64,000 nucleotides of DNA from Arthrobacter sp. 31Y (GTDB lineage: Bacteria > Actinomycetota > Actinomycetes > Actinomycetales > Micrococcaceae), in contig NZ_JAFW01000001.1 in the NCBI RefSeq assembly GCF_000526335.1, positions 2,728,001 through 2,792,000 of the forward strand. Reading direction: 5' to 3'. Below are positions 3,237-42,050 of this stretch, one piece after another. Numbering within the stretch: the stretch's first letter is position 1; every line of letters begins with the position of its first letter. Below the pieces are notes generated by a model. It saw nothing but the letters and a program-made list of their open reading frames with translations, was not told the DNA's origin and searched no databases. The position numbers were made by a program, and so were the translations under genes.

Positions 3237-4196
3237 ATGCCCAGGTTGAAGCGGAGTGACCTCTCCAAACCCGGCATTGTTAGACGCAAAGTAGGGAAAG
3301 GGTTCAGCTACAGGCACCCCGACGGGAGCTTGGTCAGCAAAGAGGATCGCCAGCGCATTAATGCGCTGGCGATCCCGCCTGCGTGGACCGATGTATGGAT
3401 CAGCCCCTTCGACCACGGGCACATCCTCGCCACAGGGGTGGATGCTGCGGGGCGCAGCCAGTACATCTACCATCCTGGTTGGCGGGAGCGGAAGGACACC
3501 GAGAAATTCATCCGTGCTGCCAAGTTGGGATCGGTCCTGCCCGCGGTTCGCCGCAACGTCACGGTCCACCTGCAGGACGGAACCGATCCCCGGCAGCAGA
3601 CCCTTGCAGCCGCAGTCCGGTTCATGGACCTGGGCGCCCTGCGCGTTGGCTCAGAGATCTATATGAAGCAGAACGGCTCCTACGGGCTCACCACGCTCCG
3701 TTGCCGCCACGCGAGGGTGGATGGGCCGGACGTTTTCCTGAAGTTCACCGGCAAGAGCGGCCAGCTCTGGGACACGTCCATCCATGATCCCGCGCTGGCA
3801 GCGTTCCTGGAACCGTTGGCGGAGCGTCCGGGCAAGGAGCGCCTGCTGGCCTACCAAGCCAACGGAACCTGGGTGTTCGTAGACGCGTCCATGATCAACG
3901 AATACCTGCGCGGAATCGCCGGTGAGGCCTACACTTCCAAGGATTTCCGGACGTGGAAGGGGACGGCCGCGGCTGCGGTCTCCCTGATCAAATCCGGCCA
4001 CAAAGGAACGCCCCGCCAAGCGATTGTGCGGGCCATCAAGGAAACCTCGGAGCTGCTGGGCAACACCCCTTCCGTGGCCCGTTCCTCCTACGTGGACCCC
4101 AGGATCATTGAGGGCTACCTGTCAGAAGAGCTCAAGGACGTGAAGCCCACCGAGGCGTCGATTGCGGCTTACCTGAATGGCGAGCCGAAGGTCTAG
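3237..4196 (+). CDS. DNA topoisomerase IB
   Basis: A 319-residue bacterial (poxvirus-like) type IB topoisomerase, which relaxes supercoils by a 3'-phosphotyrosine nick without ATP. The N-terminal domain contains the conserved RINALAIPPAWTDVWISP stretch (about residues 40-57). The catalytic domain has GALRVGSEIYMKQNGSYGLTTL, KFTGKSG and the nucleophilic Tyr at about residue 285 in SSYVDPRII. Length is normal for the family. An unusual 32-bp perfect palindrome lies inside the RINALAIPPAW codons. It begins 47 bases after dps. Confidence 0.95.
   Translation: MPRLKRSDLSKPGIVRRKVGKGFSYRHPDGSLVSKEDRQRINALAIPPAWTDVWISPFDHGHILATGVDAAGRSQYIYHPGWRERKDTEKFIRAAKLGSVLPAVRRNVTVHLQDGTDPRQQTLAAAVRFMDLGALRVGSEIYMKQNGSYGLTTLRCRHARVDGPDVFLKFTGKSGQLWDTSIHDPALAAFLEPLAERPGKERLLAYQANGTWVFVDASMINEYLRGIAGEAYTSKDFRTWKGTAAAAVSLIKSGHKGTPRQAIVRAIKETSELLGNTPSVARSSYVDPRIIEGYLSEELKDVKPTEASIAAYLNGEPKV
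3344..3375. repeat. 32-bp perfect palindrome inside the topoisomerase IB gene
   Basis: Bases 3344-3359 are the exact reverse complement of 3360-3375, with no spacer. The sequence encodes part of the conserved motif before IPPAW, so coding constraint and palindrome coexist. It could extrude as a cruciform or fold as a 16-bp mRNA hairpin. Confidence 0.9.
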
Positions 4197-4220
4197 GCCA
4201 GCCCTTCGGGTGATCCTGTC

Positions 4221-4251
4221 GTTTTTTGAGTACACTCGTACTAACAAAAAC
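4221..4251. promoter_or_regulatory. Candidate TetR operator
   Basis: A near-perfect inverted repeat with core AGTAC-actc-GTACT (4229-4242). It is extended outward by GTTTTT on the left and AAAAAC on the right. It lies 44 bases upstream of the membrane protein gene that is cotranscribed with a TetR regulator, so it is the likely autoregulatory site. Confidence 0.65.
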
Positions 4252-4294
4252 GGCGGGCCGTGGCTTCGTCGGCACACGGCTTGAGGAGCTTTCG

Positions 4295-4852
4295 ATGATC
4301 CTGTTCGCAATCGTGGTGTGCGAAGTTGCGTTCTGGGTAGCGATTCTCGCTGGCCTAACAGCTCGGTATGTGCTGCGGCGCCCCCGCCTTGGTGGAGCTC
4401 TCCTGCTCCTTGCTCCGGTGATCGATGCTGTTCTGCTTGCCTTGGTCGCTGTGGATCTGCTGGGCGGGGGGACGGCCTCGTGGCACCACGGATTGGCGGC
4501 AATCTACATTGGCGTCTCAATCGCTTACGGAAAACGCATGGTGTCCTGGGCTGACGCGCATTTCCAGCACCGGTTCGCCGGCGGACCCGCGCCTGAACGA
4601 CTCACAGGAACCCGTTACACGGTCAAGTGCTGGCGGGATGTACTTCTCACCGCGCTGGCGGTGGTGATCGCGGCGGCGACGCTGGGAGCGATCATCCTTC
4701 TCGTGGACGACGCAGAACGAACCGCTGCCCTGTCCGAGTTCTTTCGTATTCTGGGCCTCATCTTCGCCATCGATTTCCTGTGGGCTGTGAGCTACACGAT
4801 CTGGCCGAAGAAGTCCGCCCGGGCACTGCCGGCTGCTACTCCTTCACGCTGA
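4295..4852 (+). CDS. Four- to five-helix membrane protein, TetR-operon partner
   Basis: A 185-residue membrane protein. The start at 4295 has GAGGAG 8 bases upstream; a longer reading from 4226 would run through the candidate operator. Hydrophobic helices lie at about residues 1-22, 32-50, 60-80, 110-130 and 143-163. The loop SYAYGKRMVSWADAHFQHRF-like segment around residues 80-100 is amphipathic. I do not recognise a named family. It ends 4 bases before the TetR gene and so is cotranscribed with it; the pair is probably a regulator and its target. Confidence 0.8.
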   Translation: MILFAIVVCEVAFWVAILAGLTARYVLRRPRLGGALLLLAPVIDAVLLALVAVDLLGGGTASWHHGLAAIYIGVSIAYGKRMVSWADAHFQHRFAGGPAPERLTGTRYTVKCWRDVLLTALAVVIAAATLGAIILLVDDAERTAALSEFFRILGLIFAIDFLWAVSYTIWPKKSARALPAATPSR

Positions 4853-4856
4853 GACC

Positions 4857-5444
4857 ATGCCCCGCAGAATCGACGCAGAGGCACGTACCGCAGCAATTGC
4901 TGAAGCTTCCCTGCGTGTCCTCGAACGTGATGGATTGTCTGGCCTGTCCGTGCGGGGGGTCGCAGCGGAAGCCGGCATCGCCGCGGCCTCGCTGCGGCGT
5001 GCGTTCGCCACGCAGCATGCCCTCAGGGAGTACTGCCTGCAGCTCATTGAGAATCGCGTCATCGCCAGGGTGATGGCACTCGAGGTCACCGGGCGAGCTC
5101 TGGTTGATGAGTTGCTGTTGCAGTTGCTACCTCTCGACAAAGAGCGGCGCCTGGAACTGGTGGCGCAAGTCCAGCTCGGCGTGCTTTCCCTCACCGACAG
5201 CGAGCTGCGTCCTGCTGCGGTCCGGCTGAGCGACGGCGTCGCTCGCGCAAGCCACGCCGCTATCCAGATCCTGACGGAAGCGGGTCAGTTCCACCGGGGC
5301 CGCGATCCCGAGTATGAGGCACAGCGGCTACGCGCGCTCCTCGATGGGATCGCGATGAACGGGTTATGGAGTGGAGAACTGAAGACGGCCAGTCCCATGC
5401 TCAGCATGCTCGCACGCCACCTCGACGAGCTCGCCGAACCCTAA
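4857..5444 (+). CDS. TetR family transcriptional regulator
   Basis: A 195-residue TetR-type repressor. The N-terminal helix-turn-helix spans about residues 5-50: RTAAIAEASLRVLERDGL, then SVRGVAAEAGIAAASLRRAF. The C-terminal ligand-binding domain is helical and resembles the TetR_C_6-type domains. It begins 4 bases after the membrane protein stop, so the pair is an operon. A very strong terminator follows 1 base after its stop. The palindrome at 4221-4251 is the probable operator; the ligand is unknown. Confidence 0.9.
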   Translation: MPRRIDAEARTAAIAEASLRVLERDGLSGLSVRGVAAEAGIAAASLRRAFATQHALREYCLQLIENRVIARVMALEVTGRALVDELLLQLLPLDKERRLELVAQVQLGVLSLTDSELRPAAVRLSDGVARASHAAIQILTEAGQFHRGRDPEYEAQRLRALLDGIAMNGLWSGELKTASPMLSMLARHLDELAEP

Positions 5445-29189: not shown

Positions 29190-30227
29190 ATGAAGTTTGC
29201 GGTTCGATCTGTCCTGCTCGCGGTAGCGCTGACTACGGGGCTGGCCGCCTGTACCTACGCGGATGCATCACCTGACTCTGCGTCATCACCTGACCCGGCA
29301 CCATCACCCGACCAGGAGCGGTCGGCGAGCGGCGCGCCCGGCGCAACTGCCGCCGTCGACGATGCGTCCCTCAAAGGGGCCACGGTCACCGATTCGTTCG
29401 GAAACGTGGACTTCTACACAACGGTCGACGGCGACACCCTTGCGAGCGTGGCTGACTCCTTCAAGCTCTCCGCAGCGAAGCTCGCGCAATTCAACGGCAT
29501 GCCGACCGGGGCGACTTTGGTACCGGGCACCAAACTGCGGCTGATTCCTGCGCCAGGTCCGATCACGGGCGCCAAGGGGGCGGCAACTGAGGACACGCAG
29601 GGCATCCCTGTGACTTACATGATCGAAACCGGCGACACGCTGGACGGGATAACCTACCGGTTCGGGCTCAGCAGCAAGCAGCTGGCCGAAGCGAACAAGG
29701 TTCCTTACGTGTATGAGCAAGGCAATACGTACTTCATCCGTGAAGGGCACCTCATCCAGCTGCAGAAAAGACCGGTGGACAGCAGGTCCAGTTCCGGCGC
29801 CACGATCAACAACTCCTTCGGCCAGACCATCTTCTACACCAGTGTTGACGGTGATTCCTTCGACAGTCTCGGTTACAAATTCCGGTCCACCACTGAGCAG
29901 CTGCTGATGTACAATCCCACTCTGCTGGCCGACAAGCCCATCCCCGCGGGCACCAAAGTGCGGTTGATGCCAGGGGATCTCCGCATCGACGGTGCCCGGG
30001 GCGCCTTTACCTCTGACGCTGATGGCATCCCCATGACCTACACGACGGCGGCGGGAGACACGGAGGGGCAGGTCTCCTTCCGTTTCAGCGTTGTCGACAT
30101 TCGTTCGGCGAACCGGCCGCTCACCGGGACTGGCGGGACCTGGTACGAATTCACTGAAATTTCTATCGGGGAGTTGGAGGCCGGCCAGACCATCAGCCTC
30201 GCCTTGAACAAACCGATCAACAGGTAG
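29190..30227 (+). CDS. Secreted lipoprotein with LysM-like repeats
   Basis: A 345-residue exported lipoprotein: signal peptide with lipobox LAAC (Cys21), then a Pro/Ser/Asp-rich linker (about 25-60). Four repeated units follow, two with clear LysM character (YTTVDGDTLASVADSFKLSAAKLAQFNGM and YMIETGDTLDGITYRFGLSSKQLAEAN) and two more divergent (YTSVDGDSFDSLGYKFRSTTEQLLMYN and YTTAAGDTEGQVSFRF). It probably binds peptidoglycan on the outer face of the membrane. It is 6 bases from the next small membrane gene. Confidence 0.85.
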   Translation: MKFAVRSVLLAVALTTGLAACTYADASPDSASSPDPAPSPDQERSASGAPGATAAVDDASLKGATVTDSFGNVDFYTTVDGDTLASVADSFKLSAAKLAQFNGMPTGATLVPGTKLRLIPAPGPITGAKGAATEDTQGIPVTYMIETGDTLDGITYRFGLSSKQLAEANKVPYVYEQGNTYFIREGHLIQLQKRPVDSRSSSGATINNSFGQTIFYTSVDGDSFDSLGYKFRSTTEQLLMYNPTLLADKPIPAGTKVRLMPGDLRIDGARGAFTSDADGIPMTYTTAAGDTEGQVSFRFSVVDIRSANRPLTGTGGTWYEFTEISIGELEAGQTISLALNKPINR

Positions 30228-30233
30228 CCCGGG

Positions 30234-30572
30234 TTGCGGAAACGGTGGGGCCCGGCCGCCTTGATCCTTGCGGTTCTGTGTTTAGCTGCGTACGCAGTGC
30301 TGGACGCCCAGCCCTTCAGGGGGCCGCAGGGAGAGCCGCTCCTGTTCTACTTCCTTATTGACGAGGACTGGTGGTCGTTCTTGTTGTTTGGGCTGGGTGG
30401 TCTCTTGGTGTTTGCTGCTGGTTTTTGCTTGGTGCCGCCACCAGTGAACAAACTTACGGTGATTTGGGTGAGGCGGGGCCTGAAAATACTGCTCGGCCTG
30501 TCCTTTGCTGGTGCGACACCAAGCAAAGCGAGGTTCCAAGTGCCTGTGCCGGAGTCCTGTGCCGGGGTATAG
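30234..30572 (+). CDS. Small membrane protein (112 aa), TTG start
   Basis: A 112-residue protein with two hydrophobic helices (about residues 7-24 and 44-66), a central acidic LIDEDWWSF segment and a basic C-terminal part. It begins at TTG six bases after the LysM lipoprotein stop and may be translationally coupled to it. No family recognised. Its 3' end overlaps the promoter of the following leader RNA, so the last residues are the least certain. Confidence 0.5.
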   Translation: MRKRWGPAALILAVLCLAAYAVLDAQPFRGPQGEPLLFYFLIDEDWWSFLLFGLGGLLVFAAGFCLVPPPVNKLTVIWVRRGLKILLGLSFAGATPSKARFQVPVPESCAGV

Positions 30573-30579
30573 TCGGCCC
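30568..30579 (+). promoter_or_regulatory. Extended -10 promoter of the PheRS-like gene leader
   Basis: TATAGT at 30568-30573, preceded by GGGG, is followed by exactly six bases and then the ATG of a short open frame at 30580. This spacing predicts transcription starting at that ATG. No good -35 is visible. Confidence 0.65.
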
Positions 30580-30651
30580 ATGCTCTCCATGCGCCGATTT
30601 ACTTGCCCCCGACCGGTCTCCGGTCGCGAGGGCTTATTGGCGCGCGCCTAG
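30580..30651 (+). CDS. Putative leaderless leader peptide (23 aa)
   Basis: A 23-codon frame with sequence MLSMRRFTCPRPVSGREGLL plus ARA and a TAG stop. It starts at the predicted transcription start and ends inside the CGCGCC/GGCGCG hairpin. It carries a TTT Phe codon, which is rare in such GC-rich DNA, as codon 7, followed by a Cys codon. The position upstream of an aminoacyl-tRNA-synthetase-like gene suggests ribosome-mediated attenuation, but this is inference. Confidence 0.5.
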   Translation: MLSMRRFTCPRPVSGREGLLARA

Positions 30652-30694
30652 GTCCTGGCGCGGAGTGAGTCGGGGGAGGAAACCCACTCATTCC
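30606..30694 (+). promoter_or_regulatory. Structured leader with mutually exclusive hairpins (putative attenuator)
   Basis: Visible pairings: CCCCCGAC (30606-30613) with GTCGGGGG (30669-30676); GACCGG/CCGGTC (30611-30625); CGCGCC/GGCGCG (30643-30662), which encloses the leader-peptide stop; and GGAGTGAGT (30662-30670) with ACTCATTCC (30686-30694). The first and last share bases, so they exclude each other. There is no T-run after the last hairpin. The ribosome site AAGGA of the main gene lies just downstream. Confidence 0.55.
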
Positions 30695-30712
30695 AATCTG
30701 TAAGGACCAGCT

Positions 30713-31831
30713 ATGCCTACGTATTTAAGCCCGGACGAGCTTCACAACGCCCTGAACGTCAGGGACCTCTCCAATCCTGACCACCGTCCACACGCCATGC
30801 AGATTCTGTTGCGAGGAGTAGTGCGTGCCCTGAGCGACAAGGGGGACGTGCCGGAACGAACCATCCGCCACAGTCCCTTGGTCAGCGTTGCGGACAACTA
30901 CGATCGGCTGGGGTTCAGCCCTGCAGACGTCACGCGCGACCAAAGGTACTCCCGCTACATCAGCCCCACCGTCATGCTGCGCAGCCACACCTCAGCGTCC
31001 ATCCCGTCGCTGTTGCGTGGTCTGGATCCTGAAGAATCCATCGACGAACTCTGGGCCATCCCGGGGTTGGTCTATCGCCGTGATTCCATTGACCGCACCC
31101 ACGTGGGGACGCCCCATCAAGTGGACCTGTGGAGGGTCAGTTCCCGCACGGCGCTGAGCCCGCGCCACTTGCAGGACATGGTCGAGGCCCTTGTGGCAGC
31201 TGTCCTTCCGGGCGCGGACTGGAGGGCAGTTCCGGCCGTCCATCCCTACACGGACCACGGCCTGCAGATCGATGTCCGTATGGACGGCGACTGGTTGGAA
31301 CTTGCGGAGTGTGGGCTGATGTCGCCACAACTTTTCCTGGACGCTGGTTTGGATCCCGCGAAGTGGACAGGGCTGGCCCTCGGGATGGGGCTGGACCGCG
31401 CGTTGATGCTACGCAAGGGCATCCCTGACATCAGGTTGCTGAGGTCCGGGGAGCCACGAATTCAACAGCAGATGATGGACCTGGAACCCTGGAAGCCCGT
31501 CTCCCACATGCCCTCGATCAGCCGGGATCTTTCGATTGTGGTGGGGGAAGACCTGGATGCTGAAGTGCTCGGCGACAGGGTCCGGACTGCCCTGGGAGAC
31601 CTGGCCGAGGATCTTGAAAGCGTGGAACTGCTGGCACTGACTCCCTGCGGGTCGCTTCCCCCGGCAGCCCAGGAACGGCTCCGCATCCGCGCCGGGCAGT
31701 CCAATGCGCTGCTCCGGGTGGTGATGCGTCCCCTCACGCGGACCATGACGGATCGGCAAGCCAACCAGATCCGGGATGATGTCTACCTTGCTCTGCACGA
31801 AGGCCCGGTCAAGGAGCTCATTGCCGGTTAG
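30713..31831 (+). CDS. Stand-alone PheRS-like class II ligase (PheS core fused to FDX-ACB)
   Basis: A 372-residue protein made of a PheS-type class II catalytic core (about 1-260) and a C-terminal FDX-ACB anticodon-binding domain (about 268-372). Motif 2 is GLVYRRDSIDRTHVGTPHQVD. Motif 3 is GLALGMGLDRALMLRKGIPDIRLLRSGEPR. The FDX-ACB domain begins PVSHMPSISRDLSIVV. This is the architecture of monomeric mitochondrial PheRS rather than bacterial alpha2-beta2 PheRS. It lacks the N-terminal coiled coil of PheS. It is probably not the housekeeping enzyme; the substrate amino acid and acceptor are unknown. A structured leader precedes it. Confidence 0.88.
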   Translation: MPTYLSPDELHNALNVRDLSNPDHRPHAMQILLRGVVRALSDKGDVPERTIRHSPLVSVADNYDRLGFSPADVTRDQRYSRYISPTVMLRSHTSASIPSLLRGLDPEESIDELWAIPGLVYRRDSIDRTHVGTPHQVDLWRVSSRTALSPRHLQDMVEALVAAVLPGADWRAVPAVHPYTDHGLQIDVRMDGDWLELAECGLMSPQLFLDAGLDPAKWTGLALGMGLDRALMLRKGIPDIRLLRSGEPRIQQQMMDLEPWKPVSHMPSISRDLSIVVGEDLDAEVLGDRVRTALGDLAEDLESVELLALTPCGSLPPAAQERLRIRAGQSNALLRVVMRPLTRTMTDRQANQIRDDVYLALHEGPVKELIAG

Positions 31832-31840
31832 ATTCTCCCG

Positions 31841-31879
31841 TGCTGTGCCGGTGGTTGCCCATGCGCTGCCGGCACAGCA
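31841..31879 (+). terminator. Hairpin terminator after the PheRS-like gene
   Basis: Perfect 11-base arms TGCTGTGCCGG/CCGGCACAGCA (31841-31851, 31869-31879), 9 bases after the stop codon. Confidence 0.8.
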
Positions 31880-31959
31880 TCCTGGCATAACCATGAGCAA
31901 CCCGGCCACCCTCCAGCCAGGGTGCCATTCTGCTAGCAGGCGATTGCTAGTCTGGAGTC

Positions 31960-32295
31960 ATGACCCGTCGACTCGCAGCACTGTCCGCCGTCCCCCTTTT
32001 GTTGCTGCTCGTCGGCTGCGGAGCCGTGGAGGAAGCAGCTACCAACGCAGCCAGCGACGCCGCCTCCAAGGTGGCTACGGCTGCCGCCGATGAGGTCACC
32101 AAGCAGGTTTGCGCCGCAGTCCAGGACGGCTTGGTCAGCGTTCAGGACAAGCAAGTACTTGCTGGCTTGGTCTCAGCCGCCGACGCTGCCGGAGTTCCCG
32201 CAGAAATTACGACGCCGCTGAACCAGATCGCGCAAGCAGGAGACGAAGTGCCGGCTGAGTCGGTTCAGGCACTGAAGGACGCCTGCGCACCGTAG
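31960..32295 (+). CDS. Small Ala-rich lipoprotein
   Basis: A 111-residue exported lipoprotein: signal peptide with lipobox LVGC (Cys20), an Ala-rich amphipathic helix (EEAATNAASDAASKVATAAA) and a second half with two Cys residues (CAAVQDG near 51 and the penultimate-region CAP) that may form a disulphide. TAGTCT lies 6 bases before the ATG, so the mRNA is probably leaderless. No family or function recognised. Confidence 0.75.
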   Translation: MTRRLAALSAVPLLLLLVGCGAVEEAATNAASDAASKVATAAADEVTKQVCAAVQDGLVSVQDKQVLAGLVSAADAAGVPAEITTPLNQIAQAGDEVPAESVQALKDACAP

Positions 32296-32329
32296 CTGGT
32301 GCTGCGCTCTGCCTTCCTCCAGCGCGCAC

Positions 32330-33892
32330 CTAGATCCGGGTGAGATCTCGACTTTGCTGTTGAGGTGATCCCCGTTTGGCTGCGGACTGTTTTGCTTCGG
32401 CCGTCGCTACTGCCGCCACCGTCGCCTGTGGTGAATGATCACTGCGCTCGCATCCTGAGCCACGCTCATACCCCGGCAGTGGTGGCGCAGTGGATTGGTA
32501 GCTATGCCCTGTGGGAGTGCTCATGCGAAGGGTGTGCACATCGCCGGGTGTGGTTTTCGCCGTCCAGCCCGGATTTTCCTTGGTGTGGTTGCAGGCTTCG
32601 CAGAGTCCTGCGCCGTTGTTCAAGGTGGTGGTTCCGCCCGAGTGCCAGGGGACCACGTGGTCGATGTGTCGGATGGGCGCGTCGCAGTAGGGGGTGCGGC
32701 AGGTGTCGTCCCGGGCTTCGATGAATCGTCTTAATCGTGTGGGGAAGAGCCGAGCATTGGAGTCCATGCTCAGGAGCTCGCCCGTTCCGGGTGCCGTGTA
32801 GAGCCGTCGCAGCCACACATTGAAGTCGGGGTCCGGCTCTGACGTGCCTTCCTGGCCGGTCGCCAAACCACTTGCTTCGTCTGCCTGACGTTCACCAACC
32901 TGACGTTCACCAACCTGACGCTCACCAAGCAGGGTTCTGGCCCACTGTGCCGGGACGATTCCGTACCCCTTGAGCCGTGCTGGTTCGCTGTCACCTTGGA
33001 ACAGGGTACGGTCCGTCATCACAAGGTCCAGGTTGATCCCGGAGAACCCGCCCGGGGTTCCGGTGACCCGCTCCACCAAGGTATCGGCCATGACCTGGCC
33101 GCGGGGACGGGAATCGCCGCTGGAACGGGCCGAGTCAGCCGTTCGGGTCAACGCAGCATACGCAGCCACGCCTTGGGCGACTGGCAGGAGGGCGGTCAGG
33201 TACGTCATGGTGTCCGGCGCGGGTCGCAGACTCACTGTTCGTTCGGTGGCTGCGTGGCTGGCGCGTTGGGCCACAGAGCGGGGATCACGACGGTACGCGG
33301 CAGCCTTGGCAGAGGCGATGATTGCCCGGTCGCCTTTGCCTTCGAAGGTCCCGGTGTCGGGGGCGAGTTCCTCATCTACCGCGCACCGGTCCTCCACGGA
33401 CAGGCACGCTGTTTCCTTCACCAGCAGCGTGGCCCGCCATTCATTGAGCTGACCGGATTCCAGGGCGGCCAGGGTGCGGGGCATCTCCGTGACCACCGCC
33501 TTCGCAAAGCCCAATAGCCGGGAGCCCTTGTTCGGGGATTCCCGCCGGGCCAACGCAACCTGCGCTCCGACGCCCTGACCTTGCTCGGCAATCGGAACAC
33601 CAGCAGCGGCCTGTTCCTGCCGCTGGGCAAGATCAAACGCCACAGCAATCCGAGCCTGCAGACCGGTGATGGCAGACTTCAGGTCCTCCAACCCGCGGAT
33701 CTGGTCAATCAGTTCTCCGCTGGAGTCGCCCAGAGGGACTGAGCCAAGGAGTGCGATGAGGTCAGGAACCCGGGGCGCTGAATGACCGGACAGAGGCCCT
33801 GAGGAAGGGGGTGTGGAGTGGCCGGGCTGAGGTTCCGAGGCGCGATCGAGCTCATCGTGTGACGGCGTGTGGGTGGCCCGGATCTGCTCCAT
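32330..33892 (-). CDS. DUF222 and HNH endonuclease domain protein
   Basis: A 520-residue protein of the actinobacterial DUF222-HNH (13E12-repeat-like) family. The DUF222 region covers about residues 60-330. The HNH nuclease is at about 405-455: [25 protein letters not shown] with the catalytic DHV, then [16 protein letters not shown] short tandem repeat (GERQV three times) sits around residue 322-336. N- and C-terminal tails are low-complexity. Members occur in many copies per genome; their role is unclear. Tandem 18-bp repeats lie upstream of the start. Confidence 0.88.
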
Positions 33893-34983: not shown

Positions 34984-35520
34984 ATGGACGCGGAAGGCCA
35001 CGCAAAGGGCTATTGGTACGGCAAAGACCCAGGTCAGAAGGCCATTGCCATTGACGTGCTGAACGCCCTCCGGGATTACCGCGCCTCCGAGCAAGCGATG
35101 CGTCGCCGGACCCGGTCATCCATGGGGATGGGTGAGAAGGACCTGCTGGCCCTGCGCTACCTGTTCGAGGCAGAGGCCGACGGAAAATTGATGAAGCCGA
35201 AGGATCTGGGTGACAAGCTCGGGATAACGTCGGCTTCCATGACCACGTTGATCGACCGATTGGTGGAGTCCGGCCACATCCGCCGCGAACCCCATCCCAC
35301 CGATCGTCGCGCGCTGATCCTGAGGGCAACCCCGGGTTCGGACCAGGAAGTGCGTCATACCCTGGGTGGAATGCACCGCCGGATGCTGGATGCGGCCTGC
35401 GCCTTGAACCCGGACGAGTCGCAGATAGTGGTGAACTTCCTGCAGCACATGCGCGAAGCCCTGGACACCATCGACGAAGAGCCTGAGCACGCTGAGAACC
35501 CTGGGAAGTCCACGTCATGA
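34984..35520 (+). CDS. MarR family regulator next to the carotenoid operon
   Basis: A 178-residue MarR protein. The winged helix reads LMKPKDLGDKLGITSASMTTLIDRLVESGHIRREPHPTDRRALILRAT (about 68-118), flanked by dimerisation helices. GAAGGA 7 bases upstream fixes the start at 34984. It ends tail-to-tail with crtYf::crtEb (6-base overlap) and shares helix-turn-helix wording with the MarR at 41460-42050 on the other side of the cluster. Both are probably involved in control of pigment genes. Confidence 0.88.
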   Translation: MDAEGHAKGYWYGKDPGQKAIAIDVLNALRDYRASEQAMRRRTRSSMGMGEKDLLALRYLFEAEADGKLMKPKDLGDKLGITSASMTTLIDRLVESGHIRREPHPTDRRALILRATPGSDQEVRHTLGGMHRRMLDAACALNPDESQIVVNFLQHMREALDTIDEEPEHAENPGKSTS

Positions 35521-36753
35521 CGTGAGGCTCCACTGCAGGATAAAAATGAGCGTCACCAGGAATCCCGAACCGTAGTTGAGCCAGATGAACCGCCGCCATG
35601 CCACGTTGGTGCGCGCCGCCGTCGTATCCGTCACGTTCCAATACGGGGCGCAATTGATGATGTACGGGACGGCGATGATCGCCGCGAGCGGCCCGGGCCA
35701 CGGCGTGGCAAGCATCGCCAGGCCCGCAACAAGCCAGAGTCCGACGGCGAGCCTCACCGTCCGGCGGGCACCGATGACAGTCGCTATGGAGCCGATGCCG
35801 GCCTGACGGTCGGGTTCGATGTCCTGGACGGCGCCGAACGCGTGGGCGGCCATGCCCCAGAGGAAGAAAGCGGCCAAGAGGATCAGCAGTCCGGGCGTCA
35901 CATCAGCGCCTGCCAGCGCCAAGCCGACGACGGCGGGACTTACGAAGTGCGTGCTGGACGTCAGGGAGTCCAAGACCGGGCGTTCCTTGAAGCGGAGCCC
36001 TGCCACGGAGTAGGCCACCACGGCGAATGCGCTCACGGTCAGGCTGATCCATGCCGCCGGCCCGCCCGCTAACGCCAACACCAACAGGAACGGAATGTTG
36101 GTGATCGCCGCGAGCCACAGCATGGGCCGGTGAAGGTGCGGCTGAAGCAGTGCCCCCTCGATCCCGCCCTTACGCGGATTTTTGAGGTCTGACTCATAGT
36201 CAAAGACGTCGTTGATGCCGTACATGGCCAGGTTGTAGGGGATCAGGAAGTAGAAGGTGCCTACGATCAACACCCAGTCGATTTCGCGCGTGGTAAGAAG
36301 CAGGGCCGCGGCAAACGGGTAGGCGGTGTTGATCCAGCTGACCGGGCGTGATGCGAGGAGGGCCTGCGGGACGAGGCCCTTGAAGTTCTGGGAAGAGCCG
36401 GGGCTGGCATCGTTGCGCTTGCGCGTCAGCCACATCCATAGGCCCGGCAACGCCACGGCGCCCGCCAGAGGGTAGGCAAAATCCTCGATGGGTGCCAAGC
36501 CAATTTTGAGGCCAAGAATGTGCGAGGCGTCGTAGTGGAAGAGCTCCATGCCGATCATGACGGAGTCGAACACCGCCGTGAGGACAGCAAGGGCGGCGAA
36601 GGCCAACCCAACGGCCTTCCAATGCTGGGCTGTCTCACCGGGTTGGGCACCGCCGGGTTGGGCACCACCTCGCCGGGCACCCGCACGGGCAAAGATCACG
36701 CCCGCGACGACTGCTGCTGCGATGAACGCGAGCGCGAGCCACAAGTAGGTCAT
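35515..36753 (-). CDS. crtYf-crtEb: Fused carotenoid cyclase subunit and lycopene elongase (CrtYf-CrtEb)
   Basis: A 412-residue fusion. Residues about 1-115 are a lycopene-cyclase subunit of the CrtYe/CrtYf type (FDSVMIGMELFHYDASHILGLKIGLAPIEDFAYPL). Residues about 125-412 are a UbiA prenyltransferase (lycopene elongase) with both Asp motifs, NDVFDYESD and DIEPDRQAG. The elongase adds two dimethylallyl units to lycopene; the cyclase half, with CrtYe, closes the ionone rings to give a C50 carotenoid. In Corynebacterium these are separate genes. It is the last gene of the operon, overlapping crtYe by 4 bases. Confidence 0.9.
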   Translation of the reverse strand: MTYLWLALAFIAAAVVAGVIFARAGARRGGAQPGGAQPGETAQHWKAVGLAFAALAVLTAVFDSVMIGMELFHYDASHILGLKIGLAPIEDFAYPLAGAVALPGLWMWLTRKRNDASPGSSQNFKGLVPQALLASRPVSWINTAYPFAAALLLTTREIDWVLIVGTFYFLIPYNLAMYGINDVFDYESDLKNPRKGGIEGALLQPHLHRPMLWLAAITNIPFLLVLALAGGPAAWISLTVSAFAVVAYSVAGLRFKERPVLDSLTSSTHFVSPAVVGLALAGADVTPGLLILLAAFFLWGMAAHAFGAVQDIEPDRQAGIGSIATVIGARRTVRLAVGLWLVAGLAMLATPWPGPLAAIIAVPYIINCAPYWNVTDTTAARTNVAWRRFIWLNYGSGFLVTLIFILQWSLTS

Positions 36754-37106
36754 ACGTTCTCACGCTCCCGCTCGTTTTCATGGCGCTTAGCAGGGATCAG
36801 GTCAAGCAGCCGTCGCGCGCCCGTGTACAGGACCATGGTGCAGAGCACCAGGAAAAGCAGGAACACGGGTTCCTCGATGGGCAGTTCCGGTGCGAGCAGC
36901 AACCCCGTGGCGATGGTTCCTTCGCCGCGCAGGAAGATCCCCAGCCCTATTCCGGCCAGGTCCCAGCCAAGGAGGAACAAGACTCCGACGGCGGTCACGA
37001 TTGCCGCCGCTTTTGCGTCCCGCCAGAAGAACAGGCGGAAACGGTGATCGAGCAGGAGCATGCAGGTGATGCCCAAGAGCAACGAGGCCAAGTAGAGAAC
37101 ACCCAT
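36750..37106 (-). CDS. crtYe: C50 carotenoid epsilon-cyclase subunit CrtYe
   Basis: A 118-residue membrane protein with three helices, of the short lycopene-cyclase domain family: LYLASLLLGITCMLLLDHRFRLFFW and ELPIEEPVFLLFLVLCTMVLY, where the PIEE motif is conserved and likely catalytic. It acts as a heterodimer with the CrtYf half of the next gene. The start overlaps the crtI stop in TAATG and the stop overlaps crtYf-crtEb in ATGA, showing coupled translation. The tail is charged. Confidence 0.9.
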   Translation of the reverse strand: MGVLYLASLLLGITCMLLLDHRFRLFFWRDAKAAAIVTAVGVLFLLGWDLAGIGLGIFLRGEGTIATGLLLAPELPIEEPVFLLFLVLCTMVLYTGARRLLDLIPAKRHENERERENV

Positions 37107-38758
37107 TAGCCGATCCTGCTAGCAACAGGCCTCACAGTGGTAGGGCCGGTGCTGTGATCGCCGCGGATCCGTTTGAGAACAAGTTCGGCGCTGATGAGGC
37201 ACATGGGCACGCCGACGCCCGGAGCGGTGGTGGCACCTGCGTAGTACAGGCCGCGAACACGCTTGGAGGCATTCTGCGCCCGGAACATGGCGCTCTGCCT
37301 CAGGGTGTGTGCCGGTCCCAGCATGCCGCCGCGCCACGAGTTGTAGTCGCGCGCGAAGTCGGCCGGCCCTATGGTGTGCCGGACCACCACGCGTTCGCGG
37401 AGGTCCGGGATGTTGGCCCACTGGGCAATCTGGTCCAGGGCGGCGTCGGCTGTCCGTTCGATCAGCTCATCGCCGCAACCGTCAGGTCCACCTGCTCCGA
37501 GCGAGGGGTCGGCAGGGATGGGAACCAGGACAAAGAGATTCTCGTGATCCTGCGGTGCGACGCCGGGGTCAGTGGCGCTGGGTTTGCAGACGTAGATGGA
37601 GGCGGGATCCGGAATGCTTGGATCGTCACCGTAGATCGAGGCGAAGTTGGCCTCCCAATCGCGGGTGAAGAACAAGGAGTGGTGGGGGAGGTCCGGCAGG
37701 GAACCCTTCACTCCCAACATCACCAGCACTGCACCGGGCCCACTGGTGCGGCTTTGCCAGTACTTCTTGTTATAGCTGCGGTCACGGACGCCGAGCAGTT
37801 GGGTTTCGGTGTGGTGCAGGTCAGCGCCGGAGACCACTTGATCGGCCACGCTGTAGTGCTCAACACCGGTGTTGTCCCGCCATTTCACTCCGGTGACTTC
37901 CCGGCTGTCCTTGCCGGTAAACCATGCGGGAAGGTCCAGGCCGTCAAAGCGCCCCAGTTTCTTGGGGTGGGCCGCTTCGCGGGTGGTGATCTTGAGGGCT
38001 TCGGCTCCCGTGTGGATCCTGACCCCGGCATCGAGGGCCAAGGCTTCCAGACGTTCAACCAGGGCCCAAAAACCGCCCATCGGGTACTGCACGCCATCGC
38101 CCAGGTCCAAGGCACTCATCAGGTGGTACATGGACGGAGCGGCGGAAGGACTGGTACCCAGAAATACCGCCGGATATCCGAGCACCTGCCGAAGCACTGG
38201 ATGCTGGAACCGCTGGGAAACGTATTTGTCGAGCGGTGTCAGGAGCAGCTGGGCGAGCTTGGGCAGGCTGCGCACAACCTCCGGATGAAGCAGCGCCTGC
38301 AGTTTGGTGAACGGGTTGTAGAGGAAGAACCGTTCGGCCATCTCCGTGGTGTGCTGCGCCGAAGCGAGGTAGGTCCGGAGTTCTTTGGCGCTGCCGGGCT
38401 CAACGCTTTCGAAGGTGTCCAAAACCTGCTCGCTGCCAAGGGGGATTGTCAGCGGGTCCGGCCGTACGCCGTCGTGGTTTGGTTCGCTGAAGATGCGGTA
38501 CGCAGGACTGAGGGTGCGCAGATCCAGCTGTTCGGCGGTGCTGGTGCCGAGCAAGTTGAAGAAATGATCAAAGACGCCCGGCATGAGGTACCAGGAGGGG
38601 CCGGTGTCCCAGCGGAAGCCGTCCCGTTCGAGGCTGCCTGCACGGCCGCCCACCCGGTCGCGTTGCTCAAGGAGCTGGACTTCATGTCCTTCGTGGGCGA
38701 GGAGTGCGGCGGTGGCAAGCCCAGCGATGCCACCGCCGATCACTACTGTCCGGGTCAT
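37106..38758 (-). CDS. crtI: Phytoene desaturase
   Basis: A 550-residue CrtI-type FAD enzyme that takes phytoene to lycopene in four desaturations. The dinucleotide-binding motif VIGGGIAGLATAALLAHEGHEVQLLEQ is at the N-terminus. The CrtI signature at the C-terminus is RVRGLYYAGATTAPGVGVPMCLISAELV. Family length is normal. It lies between crtB and crtYe with overlapping stop/start codons on both sides. Confidence 0.95.
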   Translation of the reverse strand: MTRTVVIGGGIAGLATAALLAHEGHEVQLLEQRDRVGGRAGSLERDGFRWDTGPSWYLMPGVFDHFFNLLGTSTAEQLDLRTLSPAYRIFSEPNHDGVRPDPLTIPLGSEQVLDTFESVEPGSAKELRTYLASAQHTTEMAERFFLYNPFTKLQALLHPEVVRSLPKLAQLLLTPLDKYVSQRFQHPVLRQVLGYPAVFLGTSPSAAPSMYHLMSALDLGDGVQYPMGGFWALVERLEALALDAGVRIHTGAEALKITTREAAHPKKLGRFDGLDLPAWFTGKDSREVTGVKWRDNTGVEHYSVADQVVSGADLHHTETQLLGVRDRSYNKKYWQSRTSGPGAVLVMLGVKGSLPDLPHHSLFFTRDWEANFASIYGDDPSIPDPASIYVCKPSATDPGVAPQDHENLFVLVPIPADPSLGAGGPDGCGDELIERTADAALDQIAQWANIPDLRERVVVRHTIGPADFARDYNSWRGGMLGPAHTLRQSAMFRAQNASKRVRGLYYAGATTAPGVGVPMCLISAELVLKRIRGDHSTGPTTVRPVASRIG

Positions 38759-39690
38759 CGGTGCAGCTCCATCCAGGTTGAGGCGACAGCGCGGGCCGCG
38801 AGTCCGGCTTTTACGGCATCAGGTACACGGACCCGGGAGCGGTAGAGCTCGTCCACGGTGGTCTGGTCAATTTTGTCCGTCAGCGCCTGGAACAGTGCCG
38901 AGGCGCTCCGGACGGCAGCGCGGGCGTCGCGCGGCAGCAGGGGGATGACGGCGTTGGCATCGGCCAGCTGCGCCCGGATGGTGCTGACCCACTGCATGCG
39001 GTCCTGATCCTCGAGATGGTCCGAGGTTCCCAGGTAGCTGCGGCCCAGGCGGGTGGTGTCGTCGGCCAGGTCCCTGAGGAAGTTGATGTTCTGGAAAGCA
39101 GCGCCCAACCTGCTCGCGCCGTATTCCAAAGCCGTGGCATCGGCGTCGTCAATCTTCTCATCCCGCATGAAGACCCGCAGGCACATCAGCCCCACCACCT
39201 CGGCGGAACCGTGGACGTAACCGTCGTGGGCATCGGCGTCGAAACGCAGCGGCGCCGACTGTTGCGCGGCAGCGGGCGCCGCCCTGCCGCCAAGGTCGGT
39301 ATGCCCGCCAAGGTCCATGCGCATGGAGGCAAAGAACGGATCAATGAGCGATTGATCAATCCTTGCGGTGCGGGCTGTCTGGGCGAAAGCGTGGATGATG
39401 AGGTCGCTGCTGTAGCCGAGCAGAACGGCCCTGTGTGTCTCGTCAATGAAGTGGGTCAGGGCGTCGCACTGCTCCTGGTAGCTCAGGCCGGCCTCCGCCG
39501 TGACGCCGTCAACGAGTTCGTCGGCCACCCGCACCAGGGCGTAGATGTTGCGGACGTGCTGGCGGTGCCTGGATCCCAGCAACCTGCATGCCAATCCGAA
39601 CGAGGTGGAGTATGCGGAGATGACCTGGTTGGCCGCACGCTCGGCCGTGCGTGTGAAATGCGTGAACGAGGTATCCGTTGCGACGCTCAT
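38755..39690 (-). CDS. crtB: Phytoene synthase
   Basis: A 311-residue squalene/phytoene synthase that condenses two GGPP to phytoene. The two Asp motifs are IYALVRVADELVDG and INFLRDLADDTTRLGRSYL. Earlier FGLACRLLGSRHRQHVRNI is the family N-terminus. ATGA overlaps link it to crtE upstream and crtI downstream. Confidence 0.95.
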   Translation of the reverse strand: MSVATDTSFTHFTRTAERAANQVISAYSTSFGLACRLLGSRHRQHVRNIYALVRVADELVDGVTAEAGLSYQEQCDALTHFIDETHRAVLLGYSSDLIIHAFAQTARTARIDQSLIDPFFASMRMDLGGHTDLGGRAAPAAAQQSAPLRFDADAHDGYVHGSAEVVGLMCLRVFMRDEKIDDADATALEYGASRLGAAFQNINFLRDLADDTTRLGRSYLGTSDHLEDQDRMQWVSTIRAQLADANAVIPLLPRDARAAVRSASALFQALTDKIDQTTVDELYRSRVRVPDAVKAGLAARAVASTWMELHR

Positions 39691-40811
39691 GATTGCCGTC
39701 CCTCCAGCTGACCTGCGAGGTCGAGCAACACGTTGCGCACGCTTGCCGGGATGGTGCTGGTCAGTTGATTGTTGAATGCCTGCATTTGTTCCTCGATGAG
39801 GCCCTGGACAAAAGCCTCGGCCCCGCAGTCGCTGAGGTGCCGACGGACATGCTCGCCGTCTCCGACACTGAGCTCAGGCCTGCCAAAGAAGGGCTCGATG
39901 TCCACCCACGCCACGGTGGTCCGGGCATGGGCGATGATGGCCGTCTCCTTCCCCTCGCGGAGATCGGAAAAGGGATCCTTGCCGTGGCGGCGAGGATCCC
40001 CGAAGGTGGACAGGAGGTCGTCCTGGAGTTGGAAGGCGAGGCCAAGGTGCCGGCCGGCGGTTGCGAGCGCATTCTCGACGGCGAAGTCGGCGCCCGCCAG
40101 CGTAGCGGCTGCACGCAGGGGGAGTTCGAAGGTGTACGTCGCCGTTTTGTAGCCGCACATCACCAGGATGGTCTGGAGGTCCGGGGCAATGACGCCGTCG
40201 CCGAGTCCCACGTCCAGTTGCTCGCCGGCCACGGTCTCGTTAATGGTGTGTTCCAGGAGGTCCAGAAGCCGCAGGCGAAGATCGTGGGGGAGATCTGCCC
40301 GGGCAAAGGACTGGTGTGTGGCTGCGAGGAGCATGTCGCCCATCAGGATTCCGCCGGTCTGGGCCCAGTGGAGGAAGCTCCCGGCGTGGGTGCTGTCTGC
40401 GCCAGTGGTTTCACGGGCGGTTTCGCCGGCTTCGGACAGGAGGGAACCGATCAGGTTGGCATGCCCGCGGCGGACGAGGTCGCCGTCGATCACGTCATCA
40501 TGCAGGAGGAAAGCATAATGCAGGAGTTCGATGGCGGCGGCGATGCTGATGGCGGTTTCTCGGTGGCGCGATTCCGCTGGGCGATTTTCCTGCCGAGTGT
40601 GGTTCAGGGCGTCGTAAGTCTCCATGAGCAGGAGTGGCCGGACGAACTTGCCGCCGAGGACGTTCTGGCCGGCGAGCGCCCAGAGCCTGGCGAAGTCCGG
40701 GCCATAGGCCGTTGCTGCGCTGGCCCTCTTGCCGATCAGCCCGCCGAGTTCGTTTTCGATCGCGGTGCAGAGATCGGTGCGGCTGCGGACGGTGTTTGAA
40801 GTGATGGTCAT
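39687..40811 (-). CDS. crtE: Geranylgeranyl diphosphate synthase
   Basis: A 374-residue all-trans prenyl diphosphate synthase. The first Asp-rich motif is LLHDDVIDGDLVRRGHAN and the second is FQLQDDLLSTFGDPRRHGKD. The region before it, FVRPLLLMETYDAL, takes the place of the usual GGKRLRP segment. It supplies GGPP for CrtB; actinobacterial relatives use DMAPP, GPP or FPP as allylic primers. It overlaps idi and crtB by 4 bases each. Confidence 0.94.
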   Translation of the reverse strand: MTITSNTVRSRTDLCTAIENELGGLIGKRASAATAYGPDFARLWALAGQNVLGGKFVRPLLLMETYDALNHTRQENRPAESRHRETAISIAAAIELLHYAFLLHDDVIDGDLVRRGHANLIGSLLSEAGETARETTGADSTHAGSFLHWAQTGGILMGDMLLAATHQSFARADLPHDLRLRLLDLLEHTINETVAGEQLDVGLGDGVIAPDLQTILVMCGYKTATYTFELPLRAAATLAGADFAVENALATAGRHLGLAFQLQDDLLSTFGDPRRHGKDPFSDLREGKETAIIAHARTTVAWVDIEPFFGRPELSVGDGEHVRRHLSDCGAEAFVQGLIEEQMQAFNNQLTSTIPASVRNVLLDLAGQLEGRQS

Positions 40812-41362
40812 GCTTCAGCACCGGCTCGGAGCGGCAAGGCGCTGGCCTCAAGTAGCTGTGGGAATTGGAGCCCTAGCCAGGGGCTGAAAGCGGCGGGTGT
40901 GTGGTTCAGGGCATCAGCTAGCAGCGCAGGCGAGATCCAGGCCCAGTCCGCAACCTCTGCGGGGTTGGGGTTCAAGACGCCGGTGATGTGGGCTACGTAT
41001 ACGGGGCAAACTTCATTTTCGACGATCCCGGTGGGGTCCACCGCCCTGTAGCGGAAGTGGGGGAGGGCCAGTTCGATCCTGGTGGCGTCGACTCCGAGTT
41101 CGAACTGTGCCCGCCGTTGGATGGCCTCCTCGAATTCTTCACCGGGGCCGGGGTGGCCGCAGAAGCTGTTGGTCCACACGCCGGGCCACGTCTTCTTCTC
41201 GGGTGAACGGCGGGTGAGGAGAACTTCCCCGACGTCGTTGAGCAGGTAGCAGGAAAATGCGAGGTGGAGGGGAGTGTCCAGCGTGTGCACTCCTGCTTTG
41301 GGAGCCTGCCCAATGGGCGCTCCGGCGTCGTCAAGGAGGACCACCATCTCTGTCGCGTTCAT
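40808..41362 (-). CDS. idi: Isopentenyl-diphosphate delta-isomerase, type 1
   Basis: A 184-residue Nudix-fold isomerase that interconverts IPP and DMAPP, the latter needed both to prime CrtE and as elongase substrate. The catalytic Cys is in TNSFCGHPGPGE and the catalytic Glu in IVENEVCPVY. The ATG at 41362 has GGAGGAAGG upstream; a longer reading to 41515 runs back through the operator region. First gene of the carotenoid operon; divergent from a MarR gene. Confidence 0.94.
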   Translation of the reverse strand: MNATEMVVLLDDAGAPIGQAPKAGVHTLDTPLHLAFSCYLLNDVGEVLLTRRSPEKKTWPGVWTNSFCGHPGPGEEFEEAIQRRAQFELGVDATRIELALPHFRYRAVDPTGIVENEVCPVYVAHITGVLNPNPAEVADWAWISPALLADALNHTPAAFSPWLGLQFPQLLEASALPLRAGAEA

Positions 41363-41399
41363 GTTGCGCCTTCCTCCATTTTCCTGGCTAAACCTGAAT

Positions 41400-41417
41400 A
41401 TTGCTAGACAAGCTAGA
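41400..41417. promoter_or_regulatory. MarR-type element, copy 2 (idi/marR intergenic)
   Basis: ATTGCTAGACAAGCTAG lies between idi and the second MarR gene. It contains the repeated CTAG half-sites and the ATTGCTAG...ACAAGCT elements seen at 34941-34959. It is about 45-60 bases from the leaderless start of the MarR gene and could overlap the idi promoter. Confidence 0.6.
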
Positions 41418-41459
41418 AGAAAGGCTACCATGTAGGAAGTTGGGTGTAACATACCAAAC

Positions 41460-42050
41460 ATGTCCAGATCTGAAGAGATACCCGAAGAAGCCGGCACCCC
41501 GGTTTCCGAGGGCATCTATCATCTGGAGGCCAACGATCCCCATCACGAACTGGTGGATCGCTCCGGCCTTTCCGGAGCGGACGTAGAGCAAATAAGCGAG
41601 CTCATGGCAGCGCTGGGAAGACTGCGCGAGGCAGAAGAACGCCTCTCCGACGCCTCGCTCAGATACATGAAGCTCAACCAATCCGACATGCGCGCCCTGC
41701 ACTATCTGATTGTCTGCGCCAACCACGGTGTCATTGCCACACCCGGTGCAATAGCGTCCCGCTTGCACATCTCGACGGCGTCCACCACCAAGCTGCTCGA
41801 CCGGCTGGAACGCGCGGGGCACGTCACGCGACACGCCCACCCTTCCGACCGCCGCGCGCTCGCAATCGCCATCACTCCCGAAACGCACGAAGCCGCCATG
41901 GAGACCGTTGGCCGGCAGCAGGCCAAACGGTTCCTGGCGGCAGCACGTCTCACTCCCTCTGAACGTGAAACGGTGAAGCGCTTTTTGGACGACATGGCGC
42001 AGGAGATCGAAGTTTCGGACGAGGCGTGGGCGGGGACCGCGGGTTCTTAG
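41460..42050 (+). CDS. MarR family regulator of the carotenoid operon (CrtR-like)
   Basis: A 196-residue MarR protein with an N-terminal polar extension (about 1-35). The winged helix is NHGVIATPGAIASRLHISTASTTKLLDRLERAGHVTRHAHPSDRRALAI. TAACAT (41447-41452) is 7 bases before the ATG, so the mRNA is probably leaderless. Position, divergent from idi-crtE, matches CrtR of Corynebacterium, which represses the crt operon and responds to prenyl diphosphates; the same role is inferred here. Confidence 0.9.
   Translation: MSRSEEIPEEAGTPVSEGIYHLEANDPHHELVDRSGLSGADVEQISELMAALGRLREAEERLSDASLRYMKLNQSDMRALHYLIVCANHGVIATPGAIASRLHISTASTTKLLDRLERAGHVTRHAHPSDRRALAIAITPETHEAAMETVGRQQAKRFLAAARLTPSERETVKRFLDDMAQEIEVSDEAWAGTAGS

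Follow-up and report, generated by a model that had tools for sequence, protein, structure and literature searches.

The srmL Locus and Its Product

The stretch of DNA analysed here (the window; 64,000 nucleotides from Arthrobacter sp. 31Y) carries a gene, srmL, for a PheRS-like ligase, preceded by a short upstream ORF (uORF) and by the candidate leader elements collected in Table 1. The protein matches the NCBIfam model NF051887 (SrmL) with 524.6 bits at a cut-off of 300 and is thus a member of this family, whose name, 'PheS-related mystery ligase SrmL', gives no function. In the literature searched, 'mystery ligase' was not found, and no bacterial monomeric, one-chain PheRS figured among the titles listed. 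What is added here to the known family name is its leader, the scarcity of Phe and the members found in phages.

Table 1. Features of srmL and its leader, in window positions
Feature	Position	Strand	Remarks
-10-like box TATAGT	30568..30573	+	six bases before the uORF ATG; from sequence
Upstream ORF (leader peptide, 23 aa) MLSMRRFTCPRPVSGREGLLARA	30580..30651	+	uORF in 36/36 actinobacterial loci
Proposed control codon, Phe TTT, leader codon 7	30598..30600	+	TTT in 35/36 leaders, TTC in 1/36
Segment A1 (GCCCCCGACCGG)	30605..30616	+	may pair with A2 or B; swap test
Segment A2 (CCGGTCGCGAGGGC)	30620..30633	+	may pair with A1 or D; swap test
Segment D, at the stop codon of the uORF; putative anti-Shine-Dalgarno with core GGTCCT	30651..30656	+	D:SD swap test
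Segment B (GTCGGGGG)	30669..30676	+	may pair with A1 or C; swap test
Segment C, putative 3′ partner of B	30683..30694	+	B:C swap test
srmL Shine-Dalgarno (SD) AAGGACC	30702..30708	+	from sequence and complementarity to D
srmL	30713..31831	+	PheRS-like class II ligase of one chain; 372 residues, of which 2 are Phe

A sequence-only reading of this locus had noticed a PheS-like core joined to an FDX-ACB domain in one chain, and this is confirmed: SrmL consists of a PheS-type core and a ferredoxin-fold anticodon-binding domain, the latter retained in the structure model and with conserved residues running through it. The same reading was right that the PheS coiled coil is missing, in that SrmL lacks the N-terminal extension when aligned to the PheS of its own genome, and that there is no PheT partner nearby, as no FDX-ACB match was found near srmL. 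The canonical pheS and pheT that it expected elsewhere in the Arthrobacter sp. 31Y genome are present. The stand-alone, 'mitochondrial-style' layout that it described holds for architecture and predicted fold, the best fold match being FARS2, the human mitochondrial PheRS (PDB 3cmq), over residues 1-367. As a statement of kinship, however, the term fails: the protein scores 134.1 bits against the mitochondrial PheRS model TIGR00469, under the cut-off of 258.35 (and 92.1 bits against the bacterial PheS model TIGR00468, under 237.45), and it has a clade and an invariant pocket signature of its own, both described below. Architecture apart, a relationship of SrmL to mitochondrial PheRS is thus unsupported. 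Pyrrolysyl- and phosphoseryl-tRNA synthetases, which come after PheRS in the fold comparison (VIA-align), were read as sharing the class II fold only.

SrmL resembles FARS2 in being one chain with a PheS-like catalytic core and a ferredoxin-fold anticodon-binding domain, but FARS2 keeps a Phe-rich pocket (F at 134, 177 and 179), contains 19 Phe over the 286-residue stretch compared and sits on a separate tree branch. With bacterial PheS, SrmL shares the class II core, the motif 2 and motif 3 arginines and the pocket alanine; it differs in having no coiled coil or nearby PheT, an anticodon-binding domain of its own and a Phe-free pocket.

In a tree of 44 core sequences, rooted at the midpoint, the SrmL proteins form one clade with 100/100 support on a long stem. 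The PheS proteins make up one side of a branch supported at 96/92, with FARS2 outside PheS on a long branch (1.55). Because of that branch and the midpoint root, FARS2 is poorly placed in the tree, and since the root is not inferred, the tree is silent on whether the FARS2-like layout had a single or a double origin.

The genome was searched for tRNAs with Rfam RF00005 and ARAGORN, which gave 56 matches. In the part read, all except eight long-armed ones, the one tRNA-Phe found is an ordinary GAA gene (G000:C1:2879340), so that the earlier suggestion that SrmL charges a special tRNA has no support in this genome. Within the window, ARAGORN found no tRNA. The genome-wide search also gave a 128-base tRNA-like match at G000:C1:2922228-2922355 (L181; 44.8 bits, uncalled by ARAGORN), which resembles a tRNA whose anticodon arm holds an insertion. 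In addition, an identical 43-base tRNA 3′ part occurs at G000:C1:3295761-3295803 and 3304325-3304367, 8.6 kb apart on the same strand and with only the second in the tRNA list; the two repeats look as if they bounded an element that had integrated into a tRNA gene.

Distribution, Neighbours and Mobility

Among 197 genomes from the same family, 24 have an srmL match above the cut-off, as do 9 of 297 from the order (a set that includes the window genome and one other from the family set) and 2 of 396 from the phylum, one of which is the window genome. Two named Arthrobacter genomes have copies that are 97% and 94% identical. Three plasmid records match at E 1e-30, namely Glutamicibacter nicotianae pGnB68 (L066), Azotobacter chroococcum HR1 and Corynebacterium diphtheriae FRC0402_p2 (L068); the last copy is a remnant of residues 155-370, and a smaller srmL piece lies on a Corynebacterium sp. 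plasmid. On pGnB68, srmL adjoins a cmx-type chloramphenicol exporter and is about 8 kb from tet(33), and the C. diphtheriae remnant has erm(X) on one side and tet(65) on the other; srmL may travel with resistance elements. The distribution is, then, sporadic and partly mobile. Split or truncated copies are common (L025, L027, L028, L029 and L030; in four of these the leader persists), which shows that the gene often decays, and over long periods srmL can thus be dispensed with.

Shared neighbours were sought in 25 loci (20 genomes, the two named Arthrobacter, two plasmids and the window). While srmL was found in 24 of these, no other family was present in more than 7 loci, and those loci share one chromosomal place. 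In the window, a secreted LysM-domain protein (Pfam; 29190-30227) is encoded just upstream of srmL and is conserved only in two near-identical Arthrobacter loci. Positions 32330-33892 encode an HNH nuclease domain protein (Pfam HNH, 33.8 bits), of a kind frequent in actinobacteria. On the minus strand, 35515-41515 holds what appears by ORF reading to be a carotenoid-type cluster, with a prenyltransferase, phytoene desaturase, phytoene synthase, polyprenyl diphosphate synthase and isopentenyl-diphosphate isomerase.

The Leader of Actinobacterial srmL Genes

All 36 actinobacterial loci with an srmL N-terminus carry, in the space between srmL and the gene before it, a uORF that is 21-29 codons long. 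These uORFs were sought by the motif F-x-x-P-[R/P], which itself contains F; a motif-independent alignment of 28 upstream regions gives the same block, CGATTTA then CCCYCGGCCG, from which L035 and L036 deviate. Among the 182 Phe codons of 15 window genes, 36 are TTT, the Phe codon usual in the leaders (Table 1); of the 22 in 18 srmL coding sequences, none is. The peptides are alike beyond the Phe codon (F..PR, and an Arg near the end), and the Arg ahead of this codon is not invariant, as L124 and L125 have Ser there. Several leaders repeat one another exactly or almost exactly, and 28-29 differ by more than 10%.

In most of the 36 leaders (not in L028), a TAnnnT-like box precedes the start codon by about six bases. 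Its position would put the transcript start at or next to the uORF ATG, and the transcript is therefore probably leaderless. A sigma-70 consensus scan upstream of the window uORF found no promoter, and an Rfam scan of 30200-32400 gave three chance-level matches (best E 0.08), all far below the gathering score.

The window leader folds better than 200 of 200 shuffles (z -3.66). A covariance model built from 17 leaders and run with stricter filters on the 197 family genomes gave a single match per genome in 24 of them and nothing in the others. Every one of these is directly upstream of an srmL match, and 10 of the 24 genomes are outside the model's alignment. Two genomes have an srmL match and no leader match (one at a contig edge, the other 5′-truncated), and in two the leader match stands before a split, sub-cut-off srmL. 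Judged by this co-occurrence, the leader belongs to srmL.

Complementarity within each leader was compared with that of leaders swapped among species. In this test (28 leaders, 20000 permutations, relatedness uncorrected), the pairs A1:A2 (z -6.0), A2:D (z -3.1; 34 of 20000 permutations as good), D:SD (z -7.3), A1:B (z -6.5) and B:C (z -5.7) all scored; among ten unproposed pairs, nine were not above swaps (z -1.3 to +2.1) and D:C scores (z -2.95). The D segment and the Shine-Dalgarno covary across species, GGTCCT going with AGGACC and GTCTCC with GGAGAC. The mutually exclusive helices of an attenuator are thus found in A1:A2, A2:D and D:SD, and also in A1:B and B:C. The first three follow one another as 1:2, 2:3 and 3:4 do in classical attenuators, and segment 1 comes shortly after the Phe codon.

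In common with pheL/trpL-type attenuators, srmL leaders have a leader ORF with control codons and alternative helices, and the phage and Azotobacter forms described below have the terminator as well. The actinobacterial form differs in its one Phe codon, its probably leaderless ORF and its hidden Shine-Dalgarno, and in that no intrinsic terminator was found before srmL in the window form.

Folding was simulated with a ribosome at the Phe codon that masks A1. In these simulations, A2:D rises from 0.23 to 0.54-0.67 and SD:D falls from 0.55 to 0.42-0.48, the direction that the model wants; Shine-Dalgarno accessibility goes from 0.27 to 0.32-0.33, with a rise of more than 0.1 in 5 of 28 leaders and a fall in 2. 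A simulated ribosome at the stop codon frees the Shine-Dalgarno more (0.37, with SD:D at 0.17), and when the ribosome was slid along all codons of 29 leaders, no peak appeared at the Phe codon. The simulations lend the actinobacterial switch weak support.

Phage, Viral and Azotobacter Relatives

The phage records yielded one SrmL, 41.7% identical and encoded by the uncultured huge phage LR745206 (L119; 634,780 bases). An alignment search of IMG/VR gave four further contigs with srmL, of 181-578 kb. The viral nature of the smallest of these, L128, is doubtful because its neighbours are DUF4116 and GGDEF genes. In a BFVD fold search of viral proteins, the class II synthetases returned were all distant, and the other matches were short proteins without a name.

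In LR745206, a uORF, MNTNTTFNFFFSHKMV, with Phe at codons 7, 9, 10 and 11 precedes srmL. It is followed by a terminator with an 11-pair stem and a T tail (1 found against 0.0 in shuffles), and the uORF end can pair with the 5′ arm of this terminator at -12.8 kcal/mol. The uORF of L128, MNMLNKNNFSFFMFDFFGTQARGAILLKE, has six Phe codons and is likewise followed by a terminator. Shuffled upstream DNA gave as many Phe in nine residues in 13 of 1000 cases for LR745206 and in 0 of 1000 for L128; along the two loci, 8 of 213 and 12 of 147 windows, which cover coding DNA and include the leaders, hold four or more Phe. Short F-rich ORFs are not rare in these AT-rich loci. The other three of the five viral contigs, L127, L129 and L130, were searched and no Phe leader was found. 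In Azotobacter (L067), the uORF MNNRSHRFSRPWVRSDQDRAARA has TTT at codon 8, ahead of a terminator, and A1:A2 (-16.1) competes with pairing of A2 to the terminator 5′ arm (-24.0), the terminator hairpin itself having -20.0 kcal/mol. In most cases the leader of actinobacteria and of Azotobacter contains just one Phe codon.

Some viral copies lie among tRNA genes. In L129, the srmL ORF (3959-5089) is between tRNA-Phe genes at 3714-3788 and 5240-5314, and in L130 a tRNA-Phe is the second tRNA upstream of srmL, with a tRNA-Val in between. L127 (IMG/VR, 508 kb) has no tRNA-Phe among its 15 tRNAs; its translation island runs from four tRNA-Ser and two tRNA-Arg genes through SerRS, a response regulator and a short HisRS-like gene directly before srmL, with more tRNAs after it. 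No tRNA was found near srmL in L119 and L128. As there are 15-17 tRNAs per locus and a tRNA-Val intervenes in L130, the proximity of tRNA-Phe is only suggestive.

Depletion of Phenylalanine in SrmL

Amino acid composition was compared in 24 SrmL proteins: that of the window, 17 others from actinobacteria, that of Azotobacter and five viral ones, a few of which lack some N-terminal residues. Together they contain 23 Phe in 8878 residues (0.26%), and 14 of the 24, including all five viral ones, have none at all. PheS has 6.12% Phe (n=19, 10 of them core pieces), and the remaining ORFs of the viral contigs average 3.8-5.5%, so that the binomial probability of zero Phe in the 359-364 residues of viral SrmL is 1e-9 to 8e-7. 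Tyr (2.77%) and Trp (1.53%) are not low. In the shared core, Phe is the outlier among the 20 amino acids, with a log2 ratio of -4.44; the next is Cys at -0.86. None of the 13 alignment columns that are mostly Phe in PheS has Phe in any SrmL; among these columns are those of the pocket (F134, F177, F179, F221 and F223) and F63, which is replaced by Y.

Descent from a Phe-free ancestor would not, by itself, account for this. When evolution was simulated along the SrmL tree from such an ancestor (LG+G4, 200 runs), the Phe content reached 1.82% (sd 0.28, minimum 0.98), a value as low as that observed or lower was found in 0 of 200 runs, and at most one tip per run was Phe-free, against the 14 observed. 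Since simulations from a Phe-free ancestor never ended so low, Phe is excluded rather than simply absent by inheritance.

SrmL is thus depleted of the very amino acid whose shortage it would answer, which is the pattern of cognate bias. According to PMC4209129, amino acid biosynthetic enzymes avoid their own product, as in a tryptophan synthase alpha without Trp, and by the idea of Alves and Savageau (2005), cited there, an enzyme that is required in a shortage avoids the amino acid in question; the same would apply to SrmL. The bias set out in PMC4209129 is one of biosynthetic enzymes, whereas SrmL is synthetase-like and its depletion goes far beyond it.

Proposed Function of SrmL

We consider it likely that SrmL is an auxiliary single-chain PheRS for emergencies in which the normal PheRS is blocked and charged tRNA-Phe is exhausted. 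Of the three roles that the sequence-only reading had put forward, a backup synthetase is the best, while for the charging of a special tRNA this genome, with its ordinary GAA tRNA-Phe, gives no support. SrmL would charge tRNA-Phe with Phe, and its leader would respond to uncharged tRNA-Phe. A block of PheRS would leave tRNA-Phe uncharged, and ribosomes would stall at the Phe codon of the leader. In actinobacteria, the stalled ribosome would cover A1, leaving A2 free to pair with D, and in the phage and Azotobacter forms A2 would pair with the 5′ arm of the terminator; this pairing of A2 would free the srmL Shine-Dalgarno or prevent termination. In such a cell no Phe-containing protein could be made, PheS and PheT included, and a SrmL purged of Phe could be synthesized independently of the tRNA that it would charge. 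With an attenuator that reads a Phe codon and a PheRS that itself lacks Phe, the system would offer a way out of the blocked-PheRS trap. Because a second synthetase is no cure for missing Phe, poisoning of PheRS would be the trigger rather than plain Phe starvation. In favour of this reading are the depletion of Phe, the Phe codons of the leaders with their complementary segments, the invariant catalytic residues and, in L129 and L127, the setting among tRNA-Phe, SerRS and HisRS-like genes; against it count the altered pocket, the simulations in which the Phe codon did not stand out, the scoring of D:C, the lone Phe codon of most actinobacterial leaders and the three viral contigs where no Phe leader was found. 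One candidate natural PheRS inhibitor is ochratoxin A. Another natural inhibitor, isopatulin from Penicillium, is described in PMC12447630.

The nearest known arrangement to srmL is probably in Streptomyces coelicolor, where, as Vecchione and Sello reportedly found in 2010, an auxiliary, indolmycin-resistant TrpRS1 is under ribosome-mediated attenuation (cited in PMC4787780). Like SrmL on the present reading, it is a second, inducible synthetase behind a leader-peptide attenuator. The srmL system differs in that it concerns Phe, that a single chain would replace an alpha2-beta2 enzyme and that the protein avoids its own amino acid. For such an inducible backup synthetase, the new trait would be its freedom from its own amino acid.

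The Amino Acid Pocket and Alternative Explanations

Would the amino acid be Phe? The sequence-only reading had left it to the pocket residues, and these give a divided answer. R122, Q136, T180, A222, G224 and R229 are invariant in 24 of 24 SrmL proteins, whereas F134P, E138D, L140W, F177H, F179Y and S183G are changed from the PheS majority in all 24. The FPF loop has become H-[PSYN]-Y (H177 and Y179 in 24 of 24), F221 has become L (S and V once each) and F223 L or M; F134 is an adenine-side residue. In M. tuberculosis PheRS, the pocket includes Phe255, Phe257, Thr258, Ala305, Gln215 and Glu217, and further Gly309, Arg312, Arg201 and Ser177 (PMC12447630); SrmL keeps the counterparts of Thr258, Ala305, Gln215, Arg201 and Arg312. 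In human cytosolic PheRS, according to PMC12447630, Asn410 and Tyr412 occupy the FPF positions and Tyr412 holds the Phe ring, and the H-P-Y loop of SrmL resembles this N-P-Y loop. An alanine-to-glycine change widens the pocket of E. coli PheRS (PMC3275996), and the alanine is kept in SrmL. As H-P-Y resembles the N-P-Y solution and the alanine is kept, Phe is the favoured substrate on these residues.

Since the pocket differs from that of PheS, the amino acid could also differ: SrmL might charge tRNA-Phe with, or activate, a Phe analogue or a Tyr-like amino acid. This would fit the invariance of the changes at 134, 138, 177, 179 and 183 and those at 221 and 223, and in particular E138D and S183G, for which Phe removal gives no account. 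Most of the pocket changes, however, remove Phe and are explained by the purge alone, and the pocket counterparts are kept, with human cytosolic PheRS binding Phe by its N-P-Y loop (PMC12447630). We therefore regard an altered specificity as unlikely.

Somewhat less probable still is that the leader encodes a drug-sensing arrest peptide, as those of erm and cmx do, and that SrmL protects against, or modifies, an antibiotic directed at the ribosome. The resistance genes beside the Glutamicibacter and C. diphtheriae plasmid copies, the likeness of the actinobacterial peptides beyond the Phe codon and the simulated stop-codon ribosome, which freed the Shine-Dalgarno most, would agree with it. Yet phage-type leaders share only the Phe codons with the actinobacterial ones, no resistance neighbour recurs at the other srmL loci examined, and the Phe-free protein would be left unexplained.

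Other synthetase paralogues use non-tRNA acceptors, and a stand-alone, sporadic gene with no tRNA partner in bacteria might encode a ligase that acts on such an acceptor by aminoacyl-adenylate chemistry; the anticodon-binding domain, kept in the model and with conserved residues along its length, and the place of phage copies in tRNA/synthetase islands make this very improbable. That SrmL is a decaying paralogue with no function of its own, for which the split and truncated copies and the plasmid remnants might speak, is hardly credible in view of the invariant catalytic residues, the maintained leader and the sustained selection against Phe in 24 intact genes.

Implications

An emergency PheRS thus remains our preferred explanation of SrmL. 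More tentatively, and with the balance perhaps leaning slightly against it, SrmL could be the first synthetase to be recognised as self-codon-free, a mobile enzyme that is inducible and confers resistance to natural PheRS poisons, and with which phages likewise keep Phe decoding going. If so, it would break the catch-22 of a cell whose PheRS is blocked and which cannot make the Phe-containing PheRS, and to sense a shortage by a codon and answer it with a protein that avoids this codon would be an extreme case of selection on protein composition. A 'mystery' family would gain a function open to testing, and bacteria would possess a PheRS of one chain with no Phe at all in its pocket. Natural PheRS poisons would have to be common enough in soil to keep srmL circulating on plasmids and phages. 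PheRS is a drug target (PMC12447630), and a ready-made PheRS bypass would matter for inhibitor design. SrmL may also serve as a compact, Phe-free charging enzyme, and other synthetases may have self-free backups of their own.
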